This document shows, in pieces, positions 9,193 to 63,917 of a stretch of DNA of 64,000 nt. The stretch spans positions 1 to 64,000 of the forward strand of contig NZ_JAQQLE010000013.1 in assembly GCF_028548475.1 (NCBI RefSeq), in the 5' to 3' direction. The first letter of the stretch is position 1, and every line of letters begins with the position of its first letter. Origin of the DNA: Vogesella margarita (GTDB lineage: Bacteria > Pseudomonadota > Gammaproteobacteria > Burkholderiales > Chromobacteriaceae). A program made the translations under genes and the position numbers. The notes under the pieces are model-generated. The model worked only from the letters and a program-made list of their open reading frames with translations. It had not been told where the DNA came from and searched no databases.

Positions 9193-10761
9193 TTATTTCA
9201 CTTCAAAGCCGGATGGCGCTTGAGGGGCTTGTGGCGGGGCTGGCTGTGCCACATTGCTGCCAGCGCTGGTGGGACCTTCGGCTGCGGGTGGTTTGCCTTC
9301 CATCTTCCCGCCGAGGAAGAACTCACCTCGGTTTGGTGGAGTGTAGTTATCGGTTGGCAACGCATAGTTTGGTGGCAGCGGTTTCACCAGGCGCGGGGTG
9401 ACCACGAAGATCAGCTCACTCTTGTCGGTTTGGAAACTGCTGCTACGGAACAAGGCACCCAGAATCGGGATTTCTCCCAGCAATGGGAAGGCGCTGATAT
9501 TGGTGGTGACATTGTTCTTGATCAGGCCGCCGATGGCGAAGCTCTGGCCATCACGCAGTTGCACGGTTGTCGCGGCGCGGCGGGTGGTGAACGACGGCAG
9601 GATGGCCGTACCGTTGAGACCGGTGATATTGACACCACTGGCGTTCAGCTCGGATACCTCCGGCGATACTTTCAGGTTGATCCGGCCTCCATCGAGTACG
9701 GTCGGGGTGAAGCGCAGGGCAACACCGAATTCTTTCTCTTCCAAGGTAATGGTTTGGCCGCCATTGTTGCTGTTCTGCGCCACCGGGATAAATATCTTGC
9801 CACCGGCGAGGAAGCTCCCTTCCTGGCCACTGATCGCCATCACGGTTGGCTCGGCCAGAACCTTGACCAAACCGTCATCATGCTGGCCATCAATCTTGAA
9901 GCTGCGCGGATTGGAGGTGCTGCTATTAGAACCACCTAACAACAGTCCGAGTGCATTGGAGGTACTACCGGAGAAATTAGTATTCCAGTTATAGCTCCAG
10001 CCTCCATGGTTTAGTATCCCGGCCAGGTTGATACCAACCTGATCCAGCAGTTTCTTCGAGATTTCTGCAACCTTGACTTCCAGCATCACCTGCTGTGGTG
10101 CATCCACCGACAGCATGTTGATGACTTTGGATTGGCCTGCATAGGCTGCGGCCAACGTTAGAGCCTTGTCGACCCGAGTTGAGTCTGCCACGCTCCCCGT
10201 CAGCACCAAAGAATCAGAGGCGGCGCTGACCTTGATACGGCTGCCATCTCCGGCCAGCATGTCGTTGAGTGAGCTTTGCAGCGAGGCTGTATCCACTCCG
10301 ACGGTGACATCGACCAGCATGCACTGCCCGGTACGGCTCAGCAGGATGATGTTGGTTGACCCGACACTCTTGCCCAGCAGGTAGATTTCGCTTGGGCTCA
10401 GCAGAATCACGTCCAGCCCGGCCACCCCCGCGTTAGCCTTGCCTTCTGGTGCTTTCTTGCTGTCGCCTTCCGCCCCTTCCTTCGGCTGTGCCGCTTGCGT
10501 ACCTGCCGGATTGCCAAGCAGGATGCGGCTGACCGGAGAGGTCGTCTTCAGGCGGAATGACTTGCCAACGGTGACATTGACCATCGGTGCCGATTCGATG
10601 GTATTACACGGTGTCGTGGCCGCCGGTTTCGGGGCAATGGTTGCCGCTTTCGGTGCAAGCGTGGCCGCCTGGACCTGTGCGGTCATCATCATGCAGGTAG
10701 CAATTGCCATCGCAGCAAGATTCAGGCGGGGCAAGCGTGCTTCGACAGGTTTCTTTTTCAT
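9193..10761 (-). CDS. rcpA: Tad pilus outer-membrane secretin RcpA/CpaC
   Basis: The 522-residue protein has a signal peptide (LNLAAMAIATCMMMTAQVQA), an N-terminal pilus-formation domain (residues about 60-150, with GKSFRLKTTSPVSRILLGNP), a BON-like segment, and a C-terminal secretin domain. The secretin domain has VMLEVKVAEISKKLLDQVG, VLAEPTVMAISGQEGSFLAGG and ATTVQLRDGQSFAIGGLI. It forms the outer-membrane pore for the pilus. A Pro/Ala-rich tail ends the protein. One near-match of the dispersed 14-mer lies inside it at 10146-10159. Confidence 0.95.
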   Translation of the reverse strand: MKKKPVEARLPRLNLAAMAIATCMMMTAQVQAATLAPKAATIAPKPAATTPCNTIESAPMVNVTVGKSFRLKTTSPVSRILLGNPAGTQAAQPKEGAEGDSKKAPEGKANAGVAGLDVILLSPSEIYLLGKSVGSTNIILLSRTGQCMLVDVTVGVDTASLQSSLNDMLAGDGSRIKVSAASDSLVLTGSVADSTRVDKALTLAAAYAGQSKVINMLSVDAPQQVMLEVKVAEISKKLLDQVGINLAGILNHGGWSYNWNTNFSGSTSNALGLLLGGSNSSTSNPRSFKIDGQHDDGLVKVLAEPTVMAISGQEGSFLAGGKIFIPVAQNSNNGGQTITLEEKEFGVALRFTPTVLDGGRINLKVSPEVSELNASGVNITGLNGTAILPSFTTRRAATTVQLRDGQSFAIGGLIKNNVTTNISAFPLLGEIPILGALFRSSSFQTDKSELIFVVTPRLVKPLPPNYALPTDNYTPPNRGEFFLGGKMEGKPPAAEGPTSAGSNVAQPAPPQAPQAPSGFEVK

Positions 10762-10803
10762 TATGACTTTACTCCCTAACGAATTGGGCTGGATGTCTGA
10801 CAG

Positions 10804-11691
10804 TTAGAAACACTCGATATGTCGAGACGTGCCGCTGACGATTTCTACACAGTTCGGGGTTGCTGCGACTGAGGCAGACTTGGCTGGAGCTGGCCGTTTC
10901 GCGGCAACCTTTTTCACCACCCGCTTGGCCACCGGTTTGCTGGCCACCACCGGTTTGGCTACCGGGGCCGGCTCTTCCTCGCCCCGCAGGAGAATCTGCT
11001 TGGTAATGCCGGAGGTTTCTACCGGTTTAGGGTCAACCTGATTACGCAGCACCAGAGACAAAGTACCGACACTGCGCGCCAAATCCAGCTTCTCTGCCTG
11101 CTCCGGGGTAACCTCCAGTGTCACGGCATTGACCACCTTGGGCTTGGTATCGTCGCGACTGGCTTCCTGCGCCACCGCCAGCACCAGAATGTGCTCCAGC
11201 ACGATCTTGGAGATGCTCAGATCGACCTTTTCCTTGGTATTCGCCTTGGCATCATCTGTGGTGTTGACGAGGATATCGACATAGTTGCCAGGCAAGGCAA
11301 AGCCCGCTACGCCGATCACGTCGTTAACCCGCACCGTCATCGCACGCTTGCCTTCCATCACCACCGCCGACAGGCCACCCTTGGTGCCGAGTGGCGCCAG
11401 TTTCGACTCCAGAATAGCCTCGCCGCGTAGCACGCTGGTTTTCAGCACCCGCCCGTCCAGCGCCTGCGGATCTACAATCGCGCCATCGGGAATGCTGCCA
11501 CTGGGCCAGTCAACCAGCCGCAACATCTCTGGCGTCAACTTGGAACCGAGGTCGACATCCACCGCCGCGATGACTACTTTCTGGGCGGAAACACTTGTCT
11601 GCTTGTTGATCCATTGCGACGCCATCACCACAGCCACCAGGCCGACGATGATGGACACCACGATCATTGCTATGGCTCTTGGGTTTTTCAC
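10804..11691 (-). CDS. cpaB: Tad pilus assembly protein CpaB/RcpC
   Basis: The 295-residue protein has an N-terminal membrane anchor (AIAMIVVSIIVGLVAVVMASQWI), a SAF-like domain (VVIAAVDVDLGSKLTPEMLRLVDWP) and the RcpC/CpaB core (RAMTVRVNDVIGVAGFALPGNYVDILV). An Ala/Lys/Pro-rich region precedes the C-terminus, which carries two Cys. CpaB is a periplasmic component that works with the secretin. It lies 42 bases upstream of rcpA, in the usual cpaB-cpaC order. Confidence 0.92.
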   Translation of the reverse strand: MKNPRAIAMIVVSIIVGLVAVVMASQWINKQTSVSAQKVVIAAVDVDLGSKLTPEMLRLVDWPSGSIPDGAIVDPQALDGRVLKTSVLRGEAILESKLAPLGTKGGLSAVVMEGKRAMTVRVNDVIGVAGFALPGNYVDILVNTTDDAKANTKEKVDLSISKIVLEHILVLAVAQEASRDDTKPKVVNAVTLEVTPEQAEKLDLARSVGTLSLVLRNQVDPKPVETSGITKQILLRGEEEPAPVAKPVVASKPVAKRVVKKVAAKRPAPAKSASVAATPNCVEIVSGTSRHIECF

Positions 11692-11742
11692 TGCCTTCTC
11701 CCCACACTTGATTAACAGCTCAAGCCAGGTCGCAACCGCAAC

Positions 11743-13053
11743 CTATCCCTTGGTGTAGTAGTTTTCCCATGCCCACGTCAGCAACTCCTCACTCAGCTCC
11801 GGCTTAATCCCTTGGTAAAAGGTGAAATCGCGGATCTGTTCCAGCAAATCGCGTGGAATACAGGCGAGGAGGGGTTTGTCGTGTTTGCCGTGCAACTCAT
11901 CAATCACAAACCGGAGCCCTTGTTCGGTAAAAGGAATGCCCAAACGGGTGCAGTTCTGCTCGAAAATCGCGCGGTAGTCTTCTTCCTCAAGCTTGCCGAT
12001 GTAGATCTTGTAACCAAGCCGGCGTAGAAATGCCTCGTCGGCCAGCGTGCTTGGTGGAATGTTGCTGGAGAAAATCACGATCACGTCGAATGGCACCATG
12101 AACTTGGTACCGGTATGCAGCGCCAGATAGTCCACCCGACGATCCAGCGGCACAATCCAGCGATTCATCAGCATTTGGGGAGAAACCAGCTGCCGCCCCA
12201 GATCATCAATGATCAGCAAGCCATTGTTGGCCTTGACTTGTGGTGGTGCCTGGTAAAAACGGGTGCTCTCGTCGAAATCTAGATCCAGCATCGACAGTGT
12301 CAACTCCCCACCGGTCATCACCACCGGCCGCTGGCACTCAACCCAGCGCGCATCATGCAGTGGCCCTTTGTCCAGTGAGCTGCCACTGTGACTGCTGGCC
12401 ACTGGCCGATGCACCAGCGGATCAAACAGCTGGATTACCTCACTATCAACCAGTACGGCATAAGGAATGGCACAGTTACCGGTCAGCAAAGTAGCCAAGT
12501 GCTCGGAGACATAAGTCTTGCCGCTCCCGGGAGGACCGTATACCAGGATGGCGCGACCAGAGTTCATCGCAGCACCAAGCTGGTTCATGGTGCTCTGGCG
12601 AAGGACAAACCCTTTGAAGCCTTCGGCTACCAGCTCTTTGGTGACCTTCATGCTGGCGACTGACTGGCGGTGCACCGCATCGATATACGCTTGCAAGGTC
12701 ACCGGGGCAGGGCCAGCGTAATGGCTTTTCTGAAGGAAGGTCTGCGTACGGTTGCGGCCAACGTCGGTCAGCGTGTAGGCGATGGTGGCTTCTGTTTCGT
12801 TACGGCCGGACACTTCACACAGCTGTTCGCTGCGCATGAAGGCTAGCAGCGGCTCCAACACGCTTACGGGGAGCTTGGTATGGTTGACCAAATCGACTAG
12901 GCGGGTCTGACCGTGAAAGAAGAGGGTCTTGCAGAGCAGCTCCACCAGAAACAGGAAATCGAGACCAGTTTCTTTTACATTTTGTGGAGCACGGGGCAAA
13001 AGGTCACGAGGAGGAGTACTGCCCTGCAATTCCAAGCCATCGGGATTGAACAT
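11743..13053 (-). CDS. AAA+ ATPase of the Tad locus
   Basis: The 436-residue protein has an N-terminal winged-helix-like region (about 20-110) followed by an AAA+ module. Walker A is VYGPPGSGKTYVSEHL, Walker B-like LLIIDDLGRQLV, with sensor and arginine-finger region VIVIFSSNIPPSTLADEAFLRRLGYKIYIG. Two ATGs compete for the start. GAGAGGAGG touches the one at 13059, whereas the one at 13053 has normal spacing, so 13053 is preferred. Its job in pilus biogenesis is not known to me; similar ATPases occur in other betaproteobacterial Tad loci. It is not TadA and lacks the secretion-ATPase boxes. Confidence 0.8.
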   Translation of the reverse strand: MFNPDGLELQGSTPPRDLLPRAPQNVKETGLDFLFLVELLCKTLFFHGQTRLVDLVNHTKLPVSVLEPLLAFMRSEQLCEVSGRNETEATIAYTLTDVGRNRTQTFLQKSHYAGPAPVTLQAYIDAVHRQSVASMKVTKELVAEGFKGFVLRQSTMNQLGAAMNSGRAILVYGPPGSGKTYVSEHLATLLTGNCAIPYAVLVDSEVIQLFDPLVHRPVASSHSGSSLDKGPLHDARWVECQRPVVMTGGELTLSMLDLDFDESTRFYQAPPQVKANNGLLIIDDLGRQLVSPQMLMNRWIVPLDRRVDYLALHTGTKFMVPFDVIVIFSSNIPPSTLADEAFLRRLGYKIYIGKLEEEDYRAIFEQNCTRLGIPFTEQGLRFVIDELHGKHDKPLLACIPRDLLEQIRDFTFYQGIKPELSEELLTWAWENYYTKG

Positions 13054-15170: not shown

Positions 15171-15184
15171 TTGCGGCCAACCTT
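15171..15184 (+). repeat. Dispersed 14-mer, exact copy (C form)
   Basis: TTGCGGCCAACCTT lies between the recN terminator and the recN stop codon, overlapping the stop by two bases. Confidence 0.85.
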
Positions 15185-16847
15185 ATTCCGCGTTCGCCAG
15201 CAGCATTTCGCTGGCGTGTTGCCGCGTGGTGCTGGTGATGTCCTCGCCACCCAGCATCCGCGCCAGTTCGTCGATGCGCTGCATCTGGTCCAGTGGCTGG
15301 ATGCGGCTGACGGTGCGGCCGTCAACACCGGACTTGCTGACCTGCCAGTGCTGGCTGGCGCAGGACGCCACCTGCGGCAGGTGCGTGACGCACAGCACCT
15401 GGTAGCGTTCGCCCAGCTGCCGCAGTAGCTTGCCGACCACCTCGGCGACGCGACCGCCAATGCCGACGTCCACTTCGTCGAAAATCAGCGTCGGCACGCT
15501 GGCGACCTGGCTGATCACCACCTGCATCGCCAGGCTGATACGCGACAGCTCGCCACCGGATGCCACCTTGGCCAGCGGCCGCAGGGTACTGCCCTGATTG
15601 GCCGCCACCAGATACTCGACGGCTTCCAGCCCGTTGGCGGTCGGTTCCGCCGCCGCGGACAGCTCGATGGCAAAACGCGCGCCCTCCATCGCCAGCCGCT
15701 GCATCTCGGTACTGATGCGGGACGACAGCTCGTTGGCGGCCTGGCGGCGTTTGCCGGACAGTGCCTCAGCGTGGGCACGGTAGCGTGCCAGCGCCGCCGA
15801 TTCGGCAACGGCCAGCGCCTCCTGATCGGTCGACGCCTCCAGTGCGGCCAACTGTTGCTGCCAGTCGCCAAGTTTTTTCGGCAGCTCTTCCGGCGTGCAG
15901 CGGTACTTGCGGGCGATACGCATCAGCACGTCGAGGCGTGCCTCGACATCCAGCAACTGTTTGGGGTCGTCGTCAAAGTCGCTGCCGTAGCTGCGCAGGC
16001 TGTACACCACCTCGCGCAATTCGGCATCGACCGAATCCAGCAGTGCCAGCGACTCCGCCAGCCGCGTATCCAGCGCCGACAGCCGGCCGAGGCGGTTCTG
16101 CACCTGCGACAGCAGTGACAGACAGTTGCCGTCCATGTCGGACAGCACGTCCACCGCCAGCTGCGCGGTTTGCGCCAGCTCGGCGGCATTGGCCAGTCGC
16201 GAGTGCTGCTGGTTGAGCTGCGGCCACTCGTCAGCCTGCAGGTTCAGCTCGCTCAACTCGTTGATCTGCCAGGTCAGGCGTTCGCGCTCGACTTCCGATT
16301 CGCGCGACAGCCGCTCGGCGTCCTCGCGCTGGCGCCGCGCTTGTTGCCAGTCCTGCCATGCCTCGCGCACGTCGCGCGCCAGCTGTGTGCTGCCGGCGTA
16401 GGCGTCGAGCAGCGCGCGCTGGGTGTCGGCGCGCATCAGCGACTGGTGCGCGTGCTGGCCGTGGATGTCGACCAGATACTCGCCGATGGCCTTGAGCTGG
16501 CTTTGGGTTGCCTGCTGGCCGTTGATGAAACTGCGCGAGCGGCCATTGCGATCGACCAAGCGGCGGATCAGCAGATCGTCATCGTCGCCGCTCAACTCGT
16601 TGTCCTGCAGCCAGGCACGCAGATCGGGGCTGTTATGGATGGAGAACTGCGCGGCGATTTCGGCACGCTCGGCCCCGTCACGGATCTGGCCGACATCGGC
16701 ACGGTCACCCATTAGCAGGCCAAGCGCATCGAGGATGATGGACTTGCCGGCACCGGTCTCACCGGTGAGCACGGTAAAGCCGGCGTGAAAATCGAGATCG
16801 AGTTGATCGACGATGACAAAGTCGCGGACATTAAGTGACAACAGCAT
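15183..16847 (-). CDS. recN: DNA repair protein RecN
   Basis: The 554-residue SMC-like ATPase helps repair double-strand breaks by recombination. Walker A GETGAGKSIILDALG is at residues about 29-43. A long central coiled coil (about 150-370) follows, and the C-terminal ATPase half has GGELSRISLAMQ (signature) and PTLIFDEVDVGIGG (Walker B). Length matches the family. It is followed by nadK on the upstream side (15 bases), the usual nadK-recN order in proteobacteria. Confidence 0.96.
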   Translation of the reverse strand: MLLSLNVRDFVIVDQLDLDFHAGFTVLTGETGAGKSIILDALGLLMGDRADVGQIRDGAERAEIAAQFSIHNSPDLRAWLQDNELSGDDDDLLIRRLVDRNGRSRSFINGQQATQSQLKAIGEYLVDIHGQHAHQSLMRADTQRALLDAYAGSTQLARDVREAWQDWQQARRQREDAERLSRESEVERERLTWQINELSELNLQADEWPQLNQQHSRLANAAELAQTAQLAVDVLSDMDGNCLSLLSQVQNRLGRLSALDTRLAESLALLDSVDAELREVVYSLRSYGSDFDDDPKQLLDVEARLDVLMRIARKYRCTPEELPKKLGDWQQQLAALEASTDQEALAVAESAALARYRAHAEALSGKRRQAANELSSRISTEMQRLAMEGARFAIELSAAAEPTANGLEAVEYLVAANQGSTLRPLAKVASGGELSRISLAMQVVISQVASVPTLIFDEVDVGIGGRVAEVVGKLLRQLGERYQVLCVTHLPQVASCASQHWQVSKSGVDGRTVSRIQPLDQMQRIDELARMLGGEDITSTTRQHASEMLLANAE

Positions 16848-16861: not shown

Positions 16862-17746
16862 TCAGAGCAGGCGCTCGCCCCAGTGCAGTTTGTGGCGCAG
16901 CATGTCGTAGTAGTTGTAGCCAATCGGATGCAGGATTTTCAGCGTATTGCGGTAGCTGCGCACGATGACCCGGTCCATCTCCATCAGGTCGCAGTGCGAC
17001 TGGCCGTCAAAGTGTACGCGCGTGTCCAGCCCGCGGGTAAGCATGAAGGCCACTTCGCAATTGTCGCTGACCGCAATCGGGCGGTTGCTGAGCGACTGCG
17101 GGCAGATCGGCACCAGCGCCATCGCGCGCAGGGTAGGGTGCAGGATCGGCCCGCCGGAGGCCAGCGAGTAGGCGGTAGAGCCGGTCGGGGTGCTGATGAT
17201 CAGGCCGTCGGAGCGCTGGCTGTAGACAAACTGGTTATCGACGAACACTTCAAACTCGATCATCGAGCCGAGGGCGCCGCGGCTGATCACCACGTCGTTG
17301 AGCGCCAACGCGCTGGTGATCTCCGCTTCTTCGCGGATCACCGACGCCTGCAGCAGGATGCGCTCTTCCGGCACGAACTGGCCTTCCAGGATCTGGTCGA
17401 TGGCCCCCAGCATTTCGTGCAACGGGATGTCGGTCATGAAGCCGAGTCGGCCCTGATTGATGCCGACCAGCGGCACGCGATAGGCAGCCAGCACTCGGGC
17501 GATCGACAGCATGGTGCCGTCGCCACCGAGCACGATCACCAGATCGGCGAGCTTGCCTAGGTCCTCACGCTCGACGGCGGGGTAGGCCGGAGTATTGTCA
17601 CCCGCCGGCGGCATGCTCTCCGCGTCGATCAGCACGCGAACACCGCGCTGGGTCAGGTGTGCGGCCAACGTCAGCAGCGATTCGATAATGTGCGGTTTGC
17701 TGTGTCGGGCAACCAGGCCGATCACACTGAACAGGTTTTTGGTCAT
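16862..17746 (-). CDS. nadK: NAD kinase
   Basis: The 294-residue enzyme phosphorylates NAD to NADP using ATP. The family motif VLGGDGTMLSIARVLA is at about residues 71-86, and the conserved DGLIISTPTGSTAYSLASGGPI segment is present. Length is normal for the proteobacterial enzyme. Its start overlaps the stop of the response regulator gene upstream by four bases, so the two may be coupled by chance of packing rather than function. Confidence 0.96.
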   Translation of the reverse strand: MTKNLFSVIGLVARHSKPHIIESLLTLAAHLTQRGVRVLIDAESMPPAGDNTPAYPAVEREDLGKLADLVIVLGGDGTMLSIARVLAAYRVPLVGINQGRLGFMTDIPLHEMLGAIDQILEGQFVPEERILLQASVIREEAEITSALALNDVVISRGALGSMIEFEVFVDNQFVYSQRSDGLIISTPTGSTAYSLASGGPILHPTLRAMALVPICPQSLSNRPIAVSDNCEVAFMLTRGLDTRVHFDGQSHCDLMEMDRVIVRSYRNTLKILHPIGYNYYDMLRHKLHWGERLL

Positions 17747-18387: not shown

Positions 18388-20564
18388 TATTGCTGCTCCT
18401 CTTTTGCGTCGGGATGGCTGTTTTTGAGTGCCGGCAAGGTCAGCGAAAACTCCGCGCCGCCGGTCTCGAGATTACGGGCGGCAAGACGGCCGCCAATGCT
18501 TTCGATGATGGTCTGGCTGATGGTCAGCCCCAACCCCATGCCCTCGCTCTTTGAACTGTAAAACGGGTCAAAGACGTGTGGCAGGATATTTTCCGGTATA
18601 CCGGTGCCGTTGTCACGGATGCCCAGCCGGACATGTCGACCGCGGCGTTCGCTGTAGGCGAAGATCCGCATCGCTTCGTCGCTGCGGTTTTTCTCGGTCA
18701 TGGCATCGACGGCATTCTTGATCAGGTTGATGATCACCTGTTCCAGCTGGATGCTGTCCGCCATCACCTGCGGCAAACCTTCAGCCAGATCGGTGGTGAC
18801 GATCACCCCGCGCGCGGCCAGTTCACTCTTGGTCAGGTCCAGCGCGCTGCGCAGCGCGTCGTTGATATTGAGCGGCGCCACCTCCGGCTGCTTGCGGCTG
18901 GCCAGCTCGCGCAGGCGGCGGATGATCTGGCCGGCTCGATTGGCCTGTCGTACAGAGGAGACCAGCGAGATACGCAGCAATACCGGATCAGGATTGGCGT
19001 CGTCCATCATCGCAAGGCAAGCCTCGTTGTAGCTCATGATCGCCGACAGCGGCTGGTTGATCTCGTGTGCCACGCCGGACGACATTTCGCCCAGCGTATT
19101 GATGCGGGCGACGCGCGCCAGTTCGTCCTGGTGTTTTTTCAGCTGCATTTCGCTGGCTTTCAGGGCGGCGACCATGTCCTGGCGCAGCTTGCCGACGTGG
19201 CGGAAGCTGAGCAGATAACGCACCGCAACGTTGGCCGCATCGTTCAGCGGAATGAACTCGCCCTCGATCTCGCACTCCTGCCCTTGGGCGTCGATCAGGA
19301 TGCTGCCTGGCGGCAGCATCGCTCGTACTTTTTTCTCAATCAGGCGGGGCAGGACATGCACACGGCGCTGGTTGCGCGGATAGCAGATGCTGAAGCGGGC
19401 TCCATCCAGCTGTTTGCCCTGCAAGGCCGCATCCCCGGTCAATACCATGGCGCGGGTATTGGCGTACAACACCTGGTTGCGCGTCGACAGTAACAGCACG
19501 GCATCATCCGTCGCCTGCAAGGCGATATGTTCCAGCGTGGCCAGAGGCTGCGGTGCGGCAACCGGTGACGGCAGTACCGGCAGCGGGGCAGAGCGCCGGA
19601 AGAGGCTGTGCGACAAGATACCGACGCCCAGCAGACCACAGCCAGCAAGCAGCAGCCATGGCAGCCAGCCCGGTGCTGGCTGACTCAGTTGCAGCACATA
19701 CGGCAGTGCCTGCCCCGGCACGACAAGCGTTTGCTGCAGCGGCCCCGGCAAGGCCGGCAAGGACCAGTCCGCGGCGGCATTGCCGGCCAACGGTGCCCCT
19801 CCCGCTACGGCACGAATCGACAGCTGCAACGGACTGTTGCCAGGCTGCGGCAACAGCTGGCGCACGTCGATAAAGACGACCGCCACGCCACTCAGCTTTT
19901 CCAGTCGCTGCGCCGGCGTAACTGGCAACAGGCCACCGGCATAGGCCGCCTTGACGAGGGCGACACCCGGAGCACCGTCACGATAGGTGAACGGCTCGCT
20001 GACCTTCATTTCGCCACTGTCGATGGCGTCCGTCACCGCCGCTGCGAAAAAGCTGTCAGTCGCCAGATCCAGTCCGTGCAGATACTCGAGACGGCCGCTG
20101 GTGGGGCCTGGGAGCAGGGTGGTCAACGGTAGGTAATGGCTGCGCGCGGGAGCAGGGAACCAGGCGCTGCTTTCCGCCCAGGTATTGCTTCCCGGGTCAC
20201 GATATTCCCGGATCATGAACAGGGCGCGCCGTCGGTAGCTCTGCTGCAACTCGAAAGCGTCGCGACTGCCGGTATCGACCTTCTGCTGGAAGCCTGCGGC
20301 CACCACGAAAGAGGGTATTCCAGTGCCACTTTGTGAGGTGACGGCATTCACGGATGCCAGCTGCTGCAGCATTAGTGCGCTGTAATCCAGTTGCCGCTGC
20401 AGCAGCGCCTGGTTCAGTCGTACGGCCTGCTCAAATGCTTGCTGCCTATCACGCTCCAGCTGCACCGCCAACGCGTAGCACAACAACAGGCAAAGCAGAC
20501 CCGACAGCCACTTAGCCCCCCCGTGTTGTCGTACCGCCTGCAGAAATGTTTTTATTGTGATCAA
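18387..20564 (-). CDS. CHASE/PAS sensor histidine kinase
   Basis: The membrane kinase (725 residues from the proposed start) has an N-terminal membrane helix (WLSGLLCLLLCYALAVQL), a large periplasmic CHASE-like sensor (about 40-290), a second membrane helix (WLPWLLLAGCGLLGVGIL), a PAS-like domain (LEHIALQATDDAVLLLSTRN), HisKA with phospho-His in SSGVAHEINQPLSAIM, and a HATPase_c domain (DNGTGIPENI, GMGLGLTIS). An ATG/GTG-type start further upstream would run about 100 bases into msrA. The TTG at 20564, placing the first helix near residue 20, is therefore preferred but has only a weak GAAAG site. The ligand is unknown. It pairs with the FixJ-like regulator downstream. Confidence 0.85.
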   Translation of the reverse strand: MITIKTFLQAVRQHGGAKWLSGLLCLLLCYALAVQLERDRQQAFEQAVRLNQALLQRQLDYSALMLQQLASVNAVTSQSGTGIPSFVVAAGFQQKVDTGSRDAFELQQSYRRRALFMIREYRDPGSNTWAESSAWFPAPARSHYLPLTTLLPGPTSGRLEYLHGLDLATDSFFAAAVTDAIDSGEMKVSEPFTYRDGAPGVALVKAAYAGGLLPVTPAQRLEKLSGVAVVFIDVRQLLPQPGNSPLQLSIRAVAGGAPLAGNAAADWSLPALPGPLQQTLVVPGQALPYVLQLSQPAPGWLPWLLLAGCGLLGVGILSHSLFRRSAPLPVLPSPVAAPQPLATLEHIALQATDDAVLLLSTRNQVLYANTRAMVLTGDAALQGKQLDGARFSICYPRNQRRVHVLPRLIEKKVRAMLPPGSILIDAQGQECEIEGEFIPLNDAANVAVRYLLSFRHVGKLRQDMVAALKASEMQLKKHQDELARVARINTLGEMSSGVAHEINQPLSAIMSYNEACLAMMDDANPDPVLLRISLVSSVRQANRAGQIIRRLRELASRKQPEVAPLNINDALRSALDLTKSELAARGVIVTTDLAEGLPQVMADSIQLEQVIINLIKNAVDAMTEKNRSDEAMRIFAYSERRGRHVRLGIRDNGTGIPENILPHVFDPFYSSKSEGMGLGLTISQTIIESIGGRLAARNLETGGAEFSLTLPALKNSHPDAKEEQQ

Positions 20565-20581: not shown

Positions 20582-21127
20582 CTAATCGGTCAGGCCTCGC
20601 TGCTGCAGCGCGGTCAATACCTGCTCGCCTTTCATTACCTTGCCGGCGATGACCGCGCGGCAATAGGGTGCATAAGGATTCAGCTCATAATAACGGTGAT
20701 GCTCGGTTTCGGCAGGGTAAAAGGTGGCGGCCGGCTGCGACTGCGTCACGATCTGCACGTCAGGCGGCAAGGTTGGCCGCAACTCGTCAATGATGCGCGC
20801 CAGCGCGGCTTCCTGCTCCGGAAAATGCCAGAACACCGCCGAGCGGTATTGCGTGCCGACATCGTGGCCTTGCCTGTTTGGCGTTGTCGGGTCGTGAGTG
20901 GCGAAAAAAAGCCGCAGCAGGTTTTCGTAGCTGACAACTTCATCATCGAATTCGATTTCGACCGCTTCGGCATGGCCGGTGCGGCCGCTACACACCTGTT
21001 CGTAGGCGGGATTGGCGGTCACGCCACCGGTATAACCGGGTGTTACCGACTTGACGCCCGGCACCTGGCGAAAAACCGCCTCGGTACACCAGAAGCAGCC
21101 TCCGGCGAATGTTGCCTTGTTCAACAT
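20582..21127 (-). CDS. msrA: Peptide methionine-S-sulfoxide reductase MsrA
   Basis: The 181-residue enzyme reduces the S form of methionine sulfoxide in oxidised proteins. The active-site motif GGCFWCTE is at residues 9-16, and VTPGYTGG and GHAEAVEIEFD are family segments. The length is that of a stand-alone MsrA. An exact copy of the dispersed 14-mer lies inside and encodes LRPTL. Confidence 0.95.
   Translation of the reverse strand: MLNKATFAGGCFWCTEAVFRQVPGVKSVTPGYTGGVTANPAYEQVCSGRTGHAEAVEIEFDDEVVSYENLLRLFFATHDPTTPNRQGHDVGTQYRSAVFWHFPEQEAALARIIDELRPTLPPDVQIVTQSQPAATFYPAETEHHRYYELNPYAPYCRAVIAGKVMKGEQVLTALQQRGLTD
20769..20782 (-). repeat. Dispersed 14-mer, exact copy (C form)
   Basis: AAGGTTGGCCGCAA on the plus strand lies within msrA, where the coding strand reads LRPTL. 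Confidence 0.85.
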
Positions 21128-21165: not shown

Positions 21166-22107
21166 TCAGGGGAGTGTAGATAAATTATCTGCCAGCAAAC
21201 GGAAAAAGCCATCACTATCAACAGTTGTAAGATAGTTCACATTTGCGGGTTTCCCGGTAACGCCCCACCAGTCTACCGGTGTAGCGCCCAGCGTCAGCTC
21301 GCTGTTCTGCTCCACCGCCACATGCACCCTGCGTCCGGAAAACAGTCCCGGCTGCAGCACGTAGGCGATCACGGTCGGATCATGCAGCGGCGCGCCATCG
21401 GCGCCATAACGCTGCACATCGAAACGCTCCAGCGTGGTCAGGATATCGGCCGCCAGATTGCCGGCGCGGTTGGGCAGGGCGCGCAGCAAGCCGATGCGCG
21501 CCGGCGACGCGGTCGCCTTGTGCGTAACATCCAGCGGCAGCATGGTGATGCTGGCACTGCACGCCAGCACCGTAGCCGCTGCGTCCGGGTCGACATAGAT
21601 ATTGAACTCCGCCGACGGCGTGATGTTGCCGCCTTCAAAGTAGGCGCCACCCATCAGCACGATTTCGCGGATGCGGCCAACGATGTCCGGCGCCCGTACG
21701 ATCGCCATCGCCAGGTTGGTCAACGGCCCCAACATGCACAGCGTGACCGTGCCGGCCTCGCGCTCGCGCAGGGTACGGATGATGAAATCGACAGCGTGCT
21801 CCTGCTGCAACGGCATCACTGGCTCATGCAGCGGCACGCCATCCAGCCCGGTCTTGCCGTGTACGTGCTCGGCGGTGACCAGCGGACGCAGAAGAGGGCG
21901 CCCGCAGCCGGCATAAACCGGCACCTCCGGCCGCCCGGCCCACTCGCAAATGATTCGAGCATTCTTTGCCGTCAACTCCAGCGGCACATTGCCTGCCACC
22001 ACCGAAATTCCGACAACTTCGAGCTGGGGCGAGCCTAAAGCTGTCAAAATAGCGACCGCATCGTCCTGGCCCGGATCGGTATCAATAATTATCGCGGTCT
22101 TGCTCAT
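21166..22107 (-). CDS. Inosine/uridine-preferring nucleoside hydrolase
   Basis: The 313-residue protein belongs to the IunH/RihA family and splits nucleosides into base and ribose. The calcium-binding N-terminal motif IIIDTDPGQDDAVAIL is at residues 6-21. The family segments LGPLTNLAMA, EIVLMGGAYFEGGNITPSAEFNIYVDPDAA and PTVIAYVLQP are also present. The exact substrate cannot be told. It is divergent from dusC, with a 107-base gap holding one near-copy of the dispersed 14-mer (22169-22182). Confidence 0.92.
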   Translation of the reverse strand: MSKTAIIIDTDPGQDDAVAILTALGSPQLEVVGISVVAGNVPLELTAKNARIICEWAGRPEVPVYAGCGRPLLRPLVTAEHVHGKTGLDGVPLHEPVMPLQQEHAVDFIIRTLREREAGTVTLCMLGPLTNLAMAIVRAPDIVGRIREIVLMGGAYFEGGNITPSAEFNIYVDPDAAATVLACSASITMLPLDVTHKATASPARIGLLRALPNRAGNLAADILTTLERFDVQRYGADGAPLHDPTVIAYVLQPGLFSGRRVHVAVEQNSELTLGATPVDWWGVTGKPANVNYLTTVDSDGFFRLLADNLSTLP

Positions 22108-22214
22108 GATGAATGGCTTGCCTTTGATGCAAAGGCGCCAAGATTTACCATGCCCCGTTTAAAAGTCAAGCGTTGGCCGCAAGGCGGAGCTTTCTCAGTT
22201 TTGGTGAAAATAGT

Positions 22215-30559: not shown

Positions 30560-30561
30560 GA

Positions 30562-34032: not shown

Positions 34033-34046
34033 TTGCGGCCAACCTT
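34033..34046 (+). repeat. Dispersed 14-mer, exact copy (C form)
   Basis: TTGCGGCCAACCTT lies in the 30-base gap between recJ and rmuC. Confidence 0.85.
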
Positions 34047-41943: not shown

Positions 41944-42045
41944 GCCGTGCCATTTCATTGAGCAAGGTTGGCCGCAGCAATGCGGCCATTGCTTTTTCAG
42001 GCGCGCAAGGTAAGCTTCATCCTTATTATTTGTACTGGACAAAAC

Positions 42046-46660: not shown

Positions 46661-46687
46661 ATTTCGGCAGACCAGGGTTGGCCGCAA

Positions 46688-51608: not shown

Positions 51609-51622
51609 TTGCGGCCAACCTT
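51609..51622 (+). repeat. Dispersed 14-mer, exact copy (C form)
   Basis: TTGCGGCCAACCTT lies in the 39-base gap between nirD and nasA. Confidence 0.85.
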
Positions 51623-54675: not shown

Positions 54676-54771
54676 GCCGGAAAACCCCTTTATTGCGGCC
54701 AACCCCGGCGGTTACCACCCGCTTCTGCCTGCCTATGGTGCAAGGCAGCACCAAAAACAGGCAGCGTGCGC

Positions 54772-56436
54772 TCAGCGCAGCAGCAGCGCGTACAGCAACA
54801 GCAGATTCAGCAGCAGCGAAACCAGCGCCAGCGTGCGCCACAGCCGCAGCGGCGCCCGCTCCGTCCACGGCACGCGCTGCAGGCGGCGCTGCGGTACGCT
54901 GTCGCCCCGCGCCAGCGCCAGCAGCATTTCCTCGGCGGTCTCGAAGCGCTGTGCCGGCTCGCGCGCCACCGCTTTCAGCAGCAGGTTGTCCAGCCACAGC
55001 GGCACGTCCGGGCGCTGGCGCGACGCCGGCTGCGGCGCGTCGAAATGCGGCGTCTGGAACGCCTCGATCTCGCCGTAGGGGTAGCGCCCGGTCAGCAACT
55101 GGTAGAGGGTGACGCCGGCGGCGTACAGGTCGCTGCTGTTACTGGCCCTGGCGCCGGCGAAACGCTCCGGCGCCATGTAGCTGGCAGTGCCTGGCCCGGG
55201 GCCGTCATGTTCCGGCGTCAGCCCGGCGCAATAGGCGACGCCGAGATCAAGCAGGCGCAGCTGGCCGTCGCGGCCCAGATGCACGTTGTCCGGCTTGATG
55301 TCGCGGTGCACGATGCCGAGGCGGTGCAAGGCCGACATCGCGCGACACAGCGCGAGGCCGCAGGCGACCACCTCGCTGATGCCGAAGCGCTGCTGCGCCA
55401 TCCTTGCGGCCAACGTTTCGCCGTCATGCCAGCGCTGCAGGTAGTACAGGTGCTGCCGCGTCATGCCGGTGGCGACCTCGGCGAAATACGGCGAGCTGAT
55501 GCGTTTCTGCAGCCACTCCTCCACCAGCAGCGCCTGCTCCGCCCCCTGGTCGCCGGCCAGCAGCGGCGGCAGCGTCTTCAGCACCCAGTGGCGGCCGGCG
55601 GCATCGGCGACACGATAGGCCAGCCCGCCGGGCGAGGCGTGCAGGTTCGCCACCACGGTCAGCCCCTCGAACACCTGGCCGTCGCGCAAGCGTGGCGGCA
55701 ACGGCAGACTGGCGCCACGCGCCAGCTCGTCGCCCAGCGCCCCCGCCGGCAGCGCCTCCACCCGCAACACCAGCGCCGACAGATTGTCCTGCGCCCCGGC
55801 CGCCAATGCCGACTCGCACAGCACGCTGGCAGCGCGCTGCACGTCGAGGTGCAGGTGCAGAATCTCGTCGATGCGCTTGTCGCCCAGCGCCTGCCACACG
55901 CCGTCGCACAGCAGCGCAAACACGTCGCCGGCATGCAGGTCGCCATCGCAGAAATCCGGCATCACGTGCTCGTCCAGGCCCATGCCGCGCTTGAGCACAT
56001 GCGACAGCGACGCTTCCTCCCACACGTGATCGACGGTCAGCTGCGTCAGCCGCCCGTCCCGCAGGCGGTAGACGCGGCAGTCGCCGACGTGGGCGACGGT
56101 GTAGCGGTGACCGCGCAACACCAGCGCCGACAGCGTCGCCACCAGCGGCTTGCCCTGCGAACGCAGCCAGCGGTTGTGCGCCGCCAGCAGCCGGTCCAGC
56201 GCCGACGACACCGCCCACGTTTCCGGCGTGGCGTAGTAGTCGGCGCATACCGCGCGCACGGTGGACTGCGCCGCCAGGCGGCCGTCGGCACAGCCGGACA
56301 CGCCGTCTGCCAGCGCGAACAGCGCGCCCTTGCTGGTCAACAGCCCGTCCTGCGGCACGCTCCAGCCCAGCGCGTCCTCGTTGCGTTCACGGCGGCCGGC
56401 ATCGCTGGCGTGGCCGACGGCAAGTTGCAAGCTCAT
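54772..56436 (-). CDS. Bifunctional PP2C phosphatase and Ser/Thr protein kinase
   Basis: The 554-residue fusion has residues 1-235 as a PP2C phosphatase (NEDALGWSV, LFALADGVSGCADGR, VAHVGDCRVYRL, LLCDGVW, AQDNLSALVL). Residues about 260-520 are a protein kinase (VLKTLPP Lys, GIVHRDIKPDNVHL catalytic loop, LLDLGVAY in place of DFG, GTASYMAPERF). A C-terminal membrane helix follows (LALVSLLLNLLLLYALLL). It is downstream of the nitrate transporter gene and under the same leader. A similar fusion accompanies nitrate assimilation genes in other proteobacteria. The protein targets are unknown; control of nitrate uptake or reduction is an inference. Confidence 0.9.
   Translation of the reverse strand: MSLQLAVGHASDAGRRERNEDALGWSVPQDGLLTSKGALFALADGVSGCADGRLAAQSTVRAVCADYYATPETWAVSSALDRLLAAHNRWLRSQGKPLVATLSALVLRGHRYTVAHVGDCRVYRLRDGRLTQLTVDHVWEEASLSHVLKRGMGLDEHVMPDFCDGDLHAGDVFALLCDGVWQALGDKRIDEILHLHLDVQRAASVLCESALAAGAQDNLSALVLRVEALPAGALGDELARGASLPLPPRLRDGQVFEGLTVVANLHASPGGLAYRVADAAGRHWVLKTLPPLLAGDQGAEQALLVEEWLQKRISSPYFAEVATGMTRQHLYYLQRWHDGETLAARMAQQRFGISEVVACGLALCRAMSALHRLGIVHRDIKPDNVHLGRDGQLRLLDLGVAYCAGLTPEHDGPGPGTASYMAPERFAGARASNSSDLYAAGVTLYQLLTGRYPYGEIEAFQTPHFDAPQPASRQRPDVPLWLDNLLLKAVAREPAQRFETAEEMLLALARGDSVPQRRLQRVPWTERAPLRLWRTLALVSLLLNLLLLYALLLR
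55404..55417 (+). repeat. Dispersed 14-mer, exact copy (G form)
   Basis: TTGCGGCCAACGTT lies within the phosphatase-kinase gene, whose coding strand reads TLAAR. Confidence 0.85.
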
Positions 56437-56529: not shown

Positions 56530-57741
56530 TTATACCCGCGCCGCGGTCACATTGCTGGCGCCCCAGGTGGTACGCCAGCGCAGCTTCACGCCGTGCAGAC
56601 CGATCCAGGCCACCACGCCGAGACTGGCGAACAGCCACAGCCCGAGCTGGTAGTTGCCGGTGTGCTGCTTGACGAGACCGAGACCGGCCGCAAGCAGGAA
56701 GCCACCGATACCGCCGGCCATGCCGATCAGCCCGGTCATCACCCCGATTTCCTTGCGGAAGCGTTGTGGCACCAGCTGGAACACCGCGCCGTTACCGCTA
56801 CCCAGTGCCAGCATCGCGCCGACAAACAGCGCCAGCGCCACATTGACCTGTGGCAGGTTGAAGCCGACCACCGCGATCAGCAGCGCAGCCACGGTATACA
56901 TCACCAGCAGGGTGCGGATGCCGCCGATACGGTCGGCCAGCGCGCCGCCCAGCGGCCGCATCAGCGAACCGGCAAACACACAGGCGGCGGTGTAGTAGCC
57001 GGCGGTGACGGCGCCCAGACCATACTGGTCATGGAAGTAGCCAGGCAGCGCGCTGGCGAGGCCGGCAAAGCCGCCGAAGGTCACACAGTAGAAGAACATG
57101 AACCACCAGCTGTCCTTGTCGCCCAGCACGCGCAGGTAGTCGGCCATCGCCTTGGGCTTGGGGCGTTGCGGTGCGTTCTTGGCAAACAGGCAGAACAGCA
57201 CGAATACCACGCCAAGCGGCAGTACCGCGAGGCCGAACACGTTCTCCCAGCCATAGATTGCGGCCAACGTTGGCGCCAGCAGCGCGGCAAACACGGTACC
57301 GGAGTTACCGGCGCCGGCGATGCCCATCGCCTTGCCCTGGTGCTCGGGCGGGTACCACTGCGACGCCAGCGGCAGCGACACAGCAAAGGCGGCGCCGGCC
57401 ACGCCGAGGAACACCCCCAGCAGCAGCGCCTGCGTCAGCGACTGGATGCCGTGCAGCCAGGCAAAGCCCAGTGCCAGCATCACCACCACCTGGCCGAGGA
57501 TGCCGGCGAATTTCGGTGACACGCGATCGACGATCAGCCCCATGCCCAGACGCAGGATGGCGCCGGCCAGGATCGGTGTCGCCACCATCAGCCCGCGCTG
57601 CTGTGCCGACAGTTGCAATGCCTCGGCGATCTGGATCGCCAGCGGCCCGAGGAGATACCACACCATGAAGCTGAGATCGAAATAGAGAAACGACACCAGC
57701 AGTGTCGGGGTATGGCCTGCTTTCCAGAAGTCCTTGCTCAT
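56530..57741 (-). CDS. Nitrate/nitrite MFS transporter (NarK/NasA family)
   Basis: The 403-residue protein has 12 predicted membrane helices and begins MSKDFWKAGHTPTLLVSFLY. The nitrate/nitrite porter signatures are recognisable: FFYCVTFGGFAGLASALP and GNSGTVFAALLAPTLAAI. It should import nitrate for the assimilatory pathway. The start at 57741 fits the family, and the upstream extension runs into the leader terminator. The phosphatase-kinase gene follows after 93 bases with a hairpin (GCGGGATC/GATCCCGC at about 56491-56509) lacking a T-run. Confidence 0.92.
   Translation of the reverse strand: MSKDFWKAGHTPTLLVSFLYFDLSFMVWYLLGPLAIQIAEALQLSAQQRGLMVATPILAGAILRLGMGLIVDRVSPKFAGILGQVVVMLALGFAWLHGIQSLTQALLLGVFLGVAGAAFAVSLPLASQWYPPEHQGKAMGIAGAGNSGTVFAALLAPTLAAIYGWENVFGLAVLPLGVVFVLFCLFAKNAPQRPKPKAMADYLRVLGDKDSWWFMFFYCVTFGGFAGLASALPGYFHDQYGLGAVTAGYYTAACVFAGSLMRPLGGALADRIGGIRTLLVMYTVAALLIAVVGFNLPQVNVALALFVGAMLALGSGNGAVFQLVPQRFRKEIGVMTGLIGMAGGIGGFLLAAGLGLVKQHTGNYQLGLWLFASLGVVAWIGLHGVKLRWRTTWGASNVTAARV
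57258..57271 (+). repeat. Dispersed 14-mer, exact copy (G form)
   Basis: TTGCGGCCAACGTT lies within the nitrate transporter gene, whose coding strand reads PTLAAI. Confidence 0.85.
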
Positions 57742-58408: not shown

Positions 58409-59209
58409 ATGGGTAACGCACTCTTCATCGTCTGGCGGGAAACCGTCGAAGCCATGCTGGTGGTGGGCATCCTGCACAGCTGGCTGAAACAGAACGGCCA
58501 CAGCACCGGCATGCGCTTCCTGTGGGGCGGCGTGGCCGCGGGCGTCGGGCTGGCCATTCTGCTGGCCTTCACCATCGTCGGCATCGCCGATGTGCTGTCC
58601 GATACCGGGCTGGAATACTTCCAGCTCGGCATGGTCGCCACCGCGGCCCTGCTGATCGTGCAGATGGTGTTCTGGATGCGCGCCCATGGCCGCAAGCTCA
58701 AGCGCGAGCTGGAAAGCAGCCTCGCGCAGGCGCAGCAGCAGGCCAACTGGTGGGGCATGCTGGTGGTGGTCGCCCTGGCCGTGGCGCGCGAAAGCTCGGA
58801 GGCGGTCGTGTTCCTCTATGGCCTTGGCACCGGCGAAGGCGGCAATCCGCTGTTCTGGCTGATGCTGCCGCTGGGCGTGGTGCTGGCCTGGGGCACGTTC
58901 TGGCTGCTGCAGCAGAGCAGCCGCATCCTGACCTGGCAGCGCTTCTTCCGTATCAGCGAAGTGTTGCTGCTGCTGTTGGCCGCATCGTTGCTGGTCAATG
59001 CCTGCGAACGCGCCATCAACCTGGACCTGTTGCCAGCCCTGCTGGATCCGGTGTGGGACAGCAGCGAGCTGTTGAGCGACAACGGCAGCATTGGCGGTTT
59101 CCTGGGCACCTTCACCGGCTATCGTGCGCAACCGTCACTGAGCATGGTGCTGGTCTATGGCCTGTTCTGGAGCAGCGTGTTGTTCGGCCTGCGCCGCCAG
59201 CAACGCTAG
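58409..59209 (+). CDS. FTR1-family iron permease
   Basis: The 266-residue polytopic protein has the two REXXE iron motifs: RETVE at residues 10-14 and RESSE at 127-131, each in a membrane helix. This is the EfeU/FTR1 layout. It likely imports ferric or ferrous iron together with the cupredoxin upstream. The EfeB peroxidase is absent. It lies inside the nitrate cluster and may serve the iron-rich enzymes, but no shared control is visible. Confidence 0.9.
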   Translation: MGNALFIVWRETVEAMLVVGILHSWLKQNGHSTGMRFLWGGVAAGVGLAILLAFTIVGIADVLSDTGLEYFQLGMVATAALLIVQMVFWMRAHGRKLKRELESSLAQAQQQANWWGMLVVVALAVARESSEAVVFLYGLGTGEGGNPLFWLMLPLGVVLAWGTFWLLQQSSRILTWQRFFRISEVLLLLLAASLLVNACERAINLDLLPALLDPVWDSSELLSDNGSIGGFLGTFTGYRAQPSLSMVLVYGLFWSSVLFGLRRQQR

Positions 59210-60061: not shown

Positions 60062-60958
60062 TCACTCTCCCTGTCCGAAGCTGGCCTTCTTCGCCAGCCA
60101 TACCAGTGCCTGTTCCAGCGCCAGCCCCACCAGACCGACCACGAAGATGGCGATCAGGATGTGCTCGACGTTCAGGTTGTTCCATTCGTCCCACACCCAG
60201 AAGCCCAGTCCCACACCGCCGGTGAGCATCTCGGCCGCCACGATCACCAGCCAGGCGGTGCCGATCGCGAGGCGCACGCCGGTGAGCATGTGCGGCAGCA
60301 CCGCCGGCAGCAGGATGACACTGAACACCTTCCACTCCGACAGCCGCAGCACGCGCGCCACGTTGAGGTAATCCTGCGGCACCGCGCGCACGCCGGCGGC
60401 GGTGTTGAGGATCATCGGCCAGATGCTGGAGATGAAGATCACCCAGATCGACGCTGGACTCGCGGCCTTGAACACCAGGAGGCCGATCGGCAGCCACGCC
60501 AGCGGCGACACCGGGCGCAGCAGGCTGATCACCGGCGCCGTCATCCGCGACAGAAAATTAAAGCGCCCGATCATGAAGCCCAGCGGAATGCCGACCAGCG
60601 CGGCAAGGCCGAAGCCGACGCCGACCCGGCCCAGCGACATCAGGATGTTCCAGCCTATGCCTTGGTCGTTGGGGCCGTTCTGGTAGAACGGATCGGCGAA
60701 CAGCTCGCACGCCGAGGCCCAGGTGCTGGCCGGCCCGGGCAGGCTACCCTTGCTCCATTGCGACACCAGCGACCACAACAGCACGAAGGCGATCAGCCCC
60801 AGCAGCGGCGGCACCAGCCAGCGGATGAAGCGCACCAGCGGTTGCAACGACGGCGGCGCCGCGGCGAGCAGGGTCTTGCGCTTGCGCGGGCGGGCGCTGC
60901 GCGCGGTGGCGGGCTGGCCTGCGGCCAACGTTGGCGAGAAAGTTTCTGCAGCACTCAT
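60062..60958 (-). CDS. nrtB: Nitrate ABC transporter permease
   Basis: The 298-residue integral membrane protein is of the BPD_transp_1 type with six helices. The ABC-interaction EAA loop is about LNVARVLRLSEWKVFSVILL. The start MSAAETFSPTLAAGQ at 60958 is selected, 11 bases after nrtA. The Pro/Thr/Leu/Ala run at the N-terminus is encoded by a near-copy of the dispersed 14-mer (60919-60932). Confidence 0.93.
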   Translation of the reverse strand: MSAAETFSPTLAAGQPATARSARPRKRKTLLAAAPPSLQPLVRFIRWLVPPLLGLIAFVLLWSLVSQWSKGSLPGPASTWASACELFADPFYQNGPNDQGIGWNILMSLGRVGVGFGLAALVGIPLGFMIGRFNFLSRMTAPVISLLRPVSPLAWLPIGLLVFKAASPASIWVIFISSIWPMILNTAAGVRAVPQDYLNVARVLRLSEWKVFSVILLPAVLPHMLTGVRLAIGTAWLVIVAAEMLTGGVGLGFWVWDEWNNLNVEHILIAIFVVGLVGLALEQALVWLAKKASFGQGE

Positions 60959-62531: not shown

Positions 62532-62566
62532 AAGCAAAAGGCCGCAACAGTACGCCTGTTGCGGCC
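62532..62566 (-). terminator. Terminator of nasT
   Basis: GGCCGCAACAG and CTGTTGCGGCC form an 11-bp stem with a five-base loop; on the minus strand TTTTGCTTT follows. The arm facing nasT is part of a copy of the dispersed 14-mer. Confidence 0.85.
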
Positions 62567-62572
62567 AACCTT
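62559..62572 (+). repeat. Dispersed 14-mer, exact copy (C form)
   Basis: TTGCGGCCAACCTT overlaps the nasT terminator stem. Confidence 0.85.
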
Positions 62573-63167: not shown

Positions 63168-63293
63168 CTTGTGTCCCTCTCTTCCTTTGTTATTGCAGCA
63201 AGCCGCAGCAATTGCCATGCCATGTGCTGACAGCACGCTGGCAGCAGATCGCCATTACAATCATGTCATTACCCCTACGCACAGGAACCCGCC

Positions 63294-63875
63294 ATGACCA
63301 CCCTGCAACGCTGCGGCTGGTGCAGCGACGACCCGCTGTACATCGCCTACCACGACCACGAATGGGGACAGCCGGTGCACGACGACCGCAAGCTGTTCGA
63401 GATGCTGGTACTGGAGGGCGCCCAGGCCGGGCTGTCGTGGATCACCATCCTGAGAAAGCGCGACAACTACCGCCGCGCCTTCCACGATTTCGACCCGCAA
63501 CGGGTGGCGGCGATGGACGAGTCCGACGTCGAGCGGCTACTGCTGGATGCCGGCATCGTGCGCAACCGGTTGAAAATCAACAGCGCGATCCGCAATGCAC
63601 GCGTGTTCCTTGCCATGCAGCAGAAACACGGCAGCTTTGCGCGCTGGCTGTGGCAGCACGTCGACGGCCAGCCGCTGCAGAGCCGGTGGGCCAGCCTGGC
63701 CGAGTGTCCGGCCAGCACCGAGCTGTCCGACCGCATCAGCAAGGCGCTGAAAAAGGAAGGCATGAATTTTGTCGGCAGCACGGTGATCTACGCCTTCCTG
63801 CAGGCCACCGGCGTGGTCAACGACCACCTCTGCAATTGCCCGCAGCACCCGCAACACCGCAAGCCCTGCGCGTAA
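63294..63875 (+). CDS. tag: DNA-3-methyladenine glycosylase I
   Basis: The 193-residue base-excision repair enzyme removes 3-methyladenine. It begins MTTLQRCGWCSDDPLYIAYH. Typical segments are HDHEWGQPVHDDRKLFEMLVLEG, QAGLSWITILRKRDNYRRAF and the zinc site formed by N-terminal Cys/His and C-terminal Cys-His (HLCNCPQHPQH). Length matches the family. It is divergent from nasT by about 125 bases. Confidence 0.94.
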   Translation: MTTLQRCGWCSDDPLYIAYHDHEWGQPVHDDRKLFEMLVLEGAQAGLSWITILRKRDNYRRAFHDFDPQRVAAMDESDVERLLLDAGIVRNRLKINSAIRNARVFLAMQQKHGSFARWLWQHVDGQPLQSRWASLAECPASTELSDRISKALKKEGMNFVGSTVIYAFLQATGVVNDHLCNCPQHPQHRKPCA

Positions 63876-63889
63876 GCACGACAGCCCGG

Positions 63890-63917
63890 GGCTTGCGGCC
63901 AACCTTGGCCGCAAGCC
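63890..63917. repeat. Perfect inverted repeat built on the dispersed 14-mer
   Basis: GGCTTGCGGCCAA and TTGGCCGCAAGCC are 13-bp perfect arms around CC. It lies 15 bases after the tag stop and may end the tag transcript, though no T-run follows. Confidence 0.75.
63893..63906 (+). repeat. Dispersed 14-mer, exact copy (C form)
   Basis: TTGCGGCCAACCTT lies within the long inverted repeat after tag. Confidence 0.85.

Follow-up and report, generated by a model that had tools for sequence, protein, structure and literature searches.

The window, a stretch of 64,000 nucleotides that opens contig NZ_JAQQLE010000013.1 (C13) of Vogesella margarita, is studded with a 10-mer, TGCGGCCAAC (reverse complement GTTGGCCGCA), that recurs throughout the genome. 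We conclude from comparative sequence analysis that this word very probably belongs to a self-recognition system of the Chromobacteriaceae, in which a ComP-type pilin would recognize an uptake tag resembling the DNA uptake sequence (DUS) of Neisseria. The evidence comprises the abundance of the word, its occurrence on both strands and in inverted pairs, its genus-wise dialects, its absence from a prophage island, its turnover by substitution, and the presence of ComP orthologs and competence genes. An uptake signal had already been suggested by a first-pass annotation of the window, and the genome-wide spread of the word, its non-conserved flanks, its mode of turnover and the encoded genes make this the best-supported reading.

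Abundance and placement of the word

The first-pass annotation had described a 14-mer, TTGCGGCCAACSTT, as an over-represented DNA-level signal. The enrichment is real: 30 matches with at most two mismatches lie in the window, versus a mean of 1.6 and a maximum of 4 in 100 dinucleotide shuffles. All 11 exact copies are present, with one start corrected from 36547 to 36548; the 13 one-mismatch copies are joined by a fourteenth at 63901-63914, and five further copies carry two mismatches. The unit itself is shorter than claimed: it consists of the 10-mer core and some five flanking bases of lower information, most of them beside the CCAAC end of TGCGGCCAAC. There are 33 exact cores in the window, on both strands.

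A genome-wide count, proposed as a check on the signal, bore it out. The core occurs 2,044 times in the V. margarita genome (G000; 3,329,447 bases, 26 contigs), versus four occurrences of the reversed word, and is split 1057/987 between the strands; the 13-mer TGCGGCCAACSTT occurs 1,356 times, versus none for its reversed control. Among named genomes, those of V. indigofera, V. fluminis and V. alkaliphila are nearest by PilQ, in a comparison that may omit records of G000 itself. The core is far above control in all 13 Vogesella genomes. As the annotation had noted, copies lie on both strands and between genes; within genes they occur in either orientation and in every frame. Among 291 sampled G000 sites, 152 fall inside genes and 132 are intergenic, compared with 54 expected, which corresponds to 1.52 intergenic and 0.40 genic sites per kb; these placements, like those of the pairs below, rest on rough gene calls that likely miss genes.

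A terminus- or region-specific protein-binding site had been offered as the main alternative, and the spread of the word refutes it. Beyond the window, each of 20 stretches sampled from G000 carries 7-18 copies, and on the complete chromosome of another Vogesella genome, G059, 18 of 20 stretches spread around the circle hold 8-23, leaving regional binding with a negligible share of probability. The two empty G059 stretches, each 20 kb long (C1:615001-635000, GC 0.553; C1:1435001-1455000, GC 0.506), are likely acquired islands. An inovirus-like island in the window (23169-32441) is also free of motif sites (P=0.0034). This prophage, whose boundaries are approximate, sits between a dihydrouridine-synthase gene and rmuC and encodes a Zot-like protein (25018-26157, minus strand, phrog_197) and a GPA/nicking replication protein (28518-30347, minus strand, phrog_91).

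Site anatomy, pairing and turnover

In G000, information spans CAAG, then GTTGGCCGCA, then a single A, with the flank signal stopping at about -4 and about +11. Long conserved flanks, which the annotation had named as one sign that would speak against an uptake tag, are absent; at 16-25 bases from the core, the mean is 0.008 bits over 291 sites. Most aligned sites are kept between Vogesella species. Among 34 between-species differences, 22 involve one mismatch, four involve two, eight involve three or more, and none is a gap, as counted in the aligned parts of nine overlapping, non-independent pairwise comparisons of seven stretches (segments that did not align are excluded, amounting to about 4 of 20 kb in stretch L030). 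High copy number and some palindromic arrangements would suit pieces of a dispersed transposable or repetitive extragenic palindromic (REP)-type repeat. The far flanks carry no information, and therefore the copies are not parts of a transposable repeat; together with the gap-free ortholog alignments, this largely refutes such an origin, barring precise insertion of a repeat of about 15 bp, and we regard it as exceedingly unlikely.

The core is kept sharply. In the G000 and G059 samples, its 30 one-base variants total 208 copies versus 563 for the core itself, and at seven of ten positions their counts do not exceed the Markov expectation, with +1, +8 and +10 being laxer. Position +10 is also laxer in the sampled Vogesella genomes G054, G056 and G060. 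Seven Vogesella genomes (G050, G054-G058 and G060) hold only 473-717 copies of the 13-mer, yet their cores are as numerous as in the others, so the flanking preference differs within the genus.

Most copies in the sampled stretches are single and unpaired. Those with a neighbor within 80 bp are nearly always inverted (39 inverted and no same-strand pairs in G000; 28 and one in G059), including 10 and 9 abutting dyads, TGCGGCCAACGTTGGCCGCA, respectively. When '+-' pairs within 40 bp from both genomes were pooled (n=30), 24 proved intergenic and 13 adjoined TTTT, and all eight examples that were folded formed hairpins; of 32 '-+' pairs, 28 were intergenic and nine adjoined TTTT. This pairing and the intergenic excess would fit a transcription terminator or a regulatory element that has multiplied in its own right. 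However, more than half of the sampled sites lie within genes in either orientation, copies are mostly single, and one core is kept by dialects across genera, which makes such an element a highly improbable account of the word. Terminator use does not by itself separate this account from an uptake tag, because the 2013 DUS survey describes inverted pairs of DUS that suggest terminators in every DUS-bearing genome it covered (PMC3630211).

Dialects across the family

We next consider the family as delimited in the genome collection used here (f1, 61 genomes), which includes Vogesella (g1), Crenobacter (g5) and Gulbenkiania (g7); NCBI places Vogesella and Gulbenkiania in the Chromobacteriaceae and Crenobacter in the Neisseriaceae. 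All 13 Vogesella genomes hold 1,871-2,895 copies of TGCGGCCAAC, and the 48 other family genomes hold 8-58. Ten of these 48 have sister words, giving 23 motif-bearing genomes altogether. De novo word counts in sampled stretches returned CTCGGCCAAC in both Crenobacter genomes and TTCGGCCAAC in g6, Gulbenkiania, g9, two sampled g10 genomes and G010. Genome-wide, YTCGGCCAAC reaches 238-2,223 copies in 10 of the 61 genomes and 24-154 in the other 51, Vogesella included; the lowest carrier, G047 (238 copies), is 84% complete. The tag is the most over-represented 10-mer in the sampled stretches, with counts on the order of 10^3 and, for the sister words, falling below this in G036 (744), G048 (942) and G047. 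Samples of G002 (g2), G022 and G015 (g3), G030 (g4), and G039 and G040 (g8) yielded no strong 10-mer, although these genomes may carry a tag of another form.

The dialects share the core CGGCCAAC, lie a few bases apart, and follow the phylogeny, with the exception of G010, the sole motif-bearing genome among ten in g2. In G000, CGGCCAAC occurs 2,677 times versus 223 for its reversal (12-fold). Outside the family, 386 genomes of the order (from a sample of 399) contain no more than 736 copies each, and the top excess among those with at least 100 copies is 3.3-fold (G288, 438 vs 133). Two observations stand beside these. Stretches L275-L279 of G010 contain a second word, TTCGGCAAAC, next to TTCGGCCAAC (18 vs 0.4 expected in 100 kb), possibly a second dialect differing at +4. 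The g8 genomes G040 and G043 hold 154 and 130 copies of YTCGGCCAAC versus 34 and 28 reversed, possibly a decaying or incipient tag.

Read as AGGTTGGCCGMA, the words align with seven DUS dialect words in the DUS register at zero offset, sharing 8-9 of 12 letters. The TTCGGCCAAC dialect shares nine with AG-mucDUS (AGGTCGTCTGAA) and AG-simDUS (AGGCTGCCTGAA) (P ~0.009; among 20,000 random 12-mers at 60% GC, compared on both strands and over offsets, 0.9% reach nine), and the Crenobacter word shares eight. Of the dialect words used, those of AG-mucDUS, AG-simDUS and AG-kingDUS were verified. In this register, the spellings differ at +9 and +10, the latter being A in Vogesella and the TTCGGCCAAC dialect and G in Crenobacter. 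The A to C change of Vogesella at +9 also figures among the two differences between kingDUS and king3DUS, as given in the survey's account of dialects (PMC3630211). Six known Neisseria 10-mers showed no clear enrichment in 13 genome samples, the top excess being that of king3 in G059 (12 vs 6.7).

ComP and competence genes

The annotation had also proposed a look for comP and competence genes. The candidate ComP of G000 is a pilin encoded at C1:11054-11461 (stretch L030, outside the window), with a ComP structure, 2nba, as its best match (E 4e-10); as judged by eye, a FimT-like gene is adjacent and aroB, aroK and pilQ lie nearby. A profile of 18 family members matched three ComP structures in the Protein Data Bank (PDB) first (2nba, 5e-21; 2m3k, 2e-19; 5hz7, 1e-18), followed by general pilins at 1e-11 or weaker. 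Profile searches found an ortholog in all 13 Vogesella and all 10 sister-word genomes (E<=5.4e-33). The motif-poor genus g4 (four of four genomes) returned pilin-level matches only (2.5e-15 to 6.8e-18). An earlier PF16732 candidate in a minor-pilin operon of G000 (C10) was dropped, as it matched general pilins and not ComP. In the 2013 survey's passages on this species, BLAST did not find ComP in Chromobacterium violaceum (PMC3630211). All 13 Vogesella genomes encode DprA and 11 of them ComEC; both families are widespread, occurring in 11 and 10 of 14 control genomes, respectively.

The loop preceding the first conserved cysteine of ComP reads LTQTG in 12 of 13 Vogesella genomes (LLSTG in one), ESG in both Crenobacter, DQDG in seven ComPs of g6, g7, g9 and g10, and NQDG in G010. 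Among the motif-poor genomes examined, it is DQDG in eight g2 and ten g3 sequences and varies in g8 (DEYG in G044, DESA in G039). In these alignments, the loop thus appears to differ along with the dialect, a pattern that rests on about two independent changes. The Vogesella ComPs form a clade (support 100/99) on a long stem (0.78), although the tree contains several other long branches. Modeling of ComP by AlphaFold from three sequences reached a mean predicted local distance difference test (pLDDT) score of 60 and was not used.

Sites in the window

The core copies are collected in Table 1. Three of them fall within a Tad/Flp-type pilus locus at 710-13872, a GC-poorer region encoding two T2SSF proteins, a T2SSE ATPase, TadZ-like and TadE/G-like proteins, a secretin and an A24 prepilin peptidase.

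Table 1. Exact copies of the core 10-mer in the window; the strand given is the one reading GTTGGCCGCA.
Feature	Position	Strand
core 10-mer	1103..1112	-
core 10-mer	10147..10156	-
core 10-mer	12753..12762	-
core 10-mer (exact 14-mer)	15172..15181	-
core 10-mer	15843..15852	-
core 10-mer	17660..17669	-
core 10-mer	19230..19239	+
core 10-mer (exact 14-mer)	20772..20781	+
core 10-mer	21672..21681	-
core 10-mer	22172..22181	+
core 10-mer	33669..33678	-
core 10-mer (exact 14-mer)	34034..34043	-
core 10-mer	34302..34311	-
core 10-mer	35873..35882	-
core 10-mer (exact 14-mer)	36551..36560	+
core 10-mer (exact 14-mer)	39063..39072	-
core 10-mer	39391..39400	+
core 10-mer	40485..40494	+
core 10-mer	41967..41976	+
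core 10-mer	46298..46307	+
core 10-mer	46677..46686	+
core 10-mer	47666..47675	+
core 10-mer (exact 14-mer)	51385..51394	+
core 10-mer (exact 14-mer)	51610..51619	-
core 10-mer	52146..52155	-
core 10-mer	54037..54046	+
core 10-mer	54694..54703	-
core 10-mer (exact 14-mer)	55405..55414	-
core 10-mer (exact 14-mer)	57259..57268	-
core 10-mer	58975..58984	+
core 10-mer	60920..60929	-
core 10-mer (exact 14-mer)	62560..62569	-
core 10-mer (exact 14-mer); overlaps imperfect opposite copy 63901-63914 (near-palindromic dyad)	63894..63903	-

Proposed mechanism and its weighing

We propose that a minor type IV pilin of the ComP type would bind AG-GTTGGCCGCA at the cell exterior, that pilus retraction would import the tagged DNA, and that ComEC and DprA would pass it on to recombination. 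Copies would arise by point mutation, and transformation would then spread and maintain them, since DNA with the tag would enter more readily. Such a bias would lead to accumulation by substitution, spread through the core genome and poverty in recent islands. Close inverted pairs may often serve as transcription terminators as well, and related genera use spellings changed at DUS positions +9 and +10. ComP binding, biased uptake with its drive, and common descent with Neisseria DUS are the steps that we infer.

Several observations weigh against this proposal. All 34 motif-poor genomes of g2 (9), g3 (19) and g8 (6) have ComP matches (E<=7.1e-22), partly by construction, because the profile includes sequences from these genera; ComP alone is therefore no predictor of the motif and was rejected as one. 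ComEC has no match in Vogesella G057 and G058 (the latter 88% complete). The Vogesella word shares only 8 of 12 letters with DUS (P 0.06-0.08), and all dialects found here read CCG at +6 to +8, not the CTG core, which according to the survey is needed in meningococcus and conserved in eight known DUS dialects (PMC3630211). Just two cysteines are invariant among the 18 aligned ComP orthologs, whereas Neisseria ComP has two disulfides, which are called crucial for DUS binding in the relevant passage of PMC12061091. Pairs within 80 bp were absent from G038, G046 and G010, three of the five TTCGGCCAAC genomes sampled (25-40 sites each); the other two gave six inverted pairs and one same-strand pair (G037) and two inverted pairs (G045), and Crenobacter G034 gave 12 inverted and none on the same strand. 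In PMC12826045, a paper on Vogesella genetics with a pigment-less igiD deletion in V. indigofera (laboratory strain OSW_575), conjugation was used, and a term search of its text returned no natural transformation.

A further point is a weak leading-strand excess in G059 (143 vs 100 in stretches with clear GC skew, P 0.007), which, with the high genome-wide copy number, would be in keeping with a Chi-like or other recombination or segregation signal read inside the cell by RecBCD, FtsK or a nucleoid protein. Chi sites and FtsK-orienting polar sequences (KOPS) are abundant short words of the core genome with strong strand bias. The strands of G000 are nearly balanced and its close copies are mostly inverted pairs and abutting dyads, on which grounds the strand-biased type was demoted. 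Genus-specific respelling would be unexpected for a housekeeping reader, and known Chi sites are shorter than this word. We consider an intracellular signal of this kind very unlikely.

Returning to the uptake tag, we give roughly even credence to a joint history in which the ComP/tag system predates the split between the Neisseria group and the Vogesella family. The ancestral tag would have been near AGGTTGGCCGAA, with a CCG or CTG core; Vogesella would have replaced A by C at +9 and Crenobacter A by G at +10, whereas several genera would have lost the tag or failed to amplify it. The +9/+10 end would be read by the ComP loop that precedes the conserved cysteine (DQDG, with TQTG in Vogesella and ESG in Crenobacter). 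If so, these genera would provide a naturally varied series from which the reading of DNA by ComP could be decoded.

Prior reports and significance

To our knowledge, ComP-dependent uptake tags have been described only in Neisseriaceae. No report of an uptake sequence in Chromobacteriaceae was found in the literature on these genera, as judged from titles, abstract openings and passages; this excludes the 10-mers over-represented in Laribacter, Lutiella, Pseudogulbenkiania and Chromobacterium that are listed in Table S1D of PMC3630211, which lies outside the comparison with TTCGGCCAAC/GTTGGCCGAA. A literature search also found no report of natural transformation in Vogesella, which an uptake tag predicts. 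If the words work as proposed, the tagging system would be older and wider than the Neisseria group, the 'required' CTG core would not be universal, and three spellings in 23 genomes with matched ComP variants would allow sequence reading by the receptor to be probed outside Neisseria.

Comparison with known systems

Unlike Chi sites and KOPS, the present word is nearly strand-balanced and often paired head to head. The uptake signal sequence (USS) of Pasteurellaceae is, like it, a short self tag that is enriched in its genome and occurs at high density. The annotation had held that the word differs from both known uptake types, and this stands: it has CCG for the CTG of DUS and is unrelated to the USS (AAGTGCGGT, as the annotation gave it). 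The USS receptor is only predicted, according to the relevant part of PMC12616744.

The closest likeness is to the DUS of Neisseriaceae. In both, a 10-12-mer occurs some 2,000 times over the two strands, forms inverted pairs, varies in dialect from genus to genus, and is accompanied by a ComP ortholog. Shared letters are G at +1, +4 (where eikDUS has A) and +8, C at +6 and, in most cases, A at +10, along with the AG prefix and the A/C variation at +9 seen in king3DUS. Unlike DUS, the words have G at +5 and C at +7, absent from all seven dialect words compared, the Crenobacter word has G at +10, and ComP here has one conserved cysteine pair. The host group also differs, being one in which the 2013 survey, in its passages on these taxa, found no obvious DUS in five genomes and dated the origin of DUS after the split from C. 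violaceum (PMC3630211). Lacking the CTG core, and with a ComP that lacks the Neisseria disulfide pattern, the word is set apart from Neisseriaceae-type DUS dialects. Common descent with Neisseria DUS is plausible on the sequence likeness, and we put it no higher because the core reads CCG, with C at +7, in place of the conserved and required CTG.

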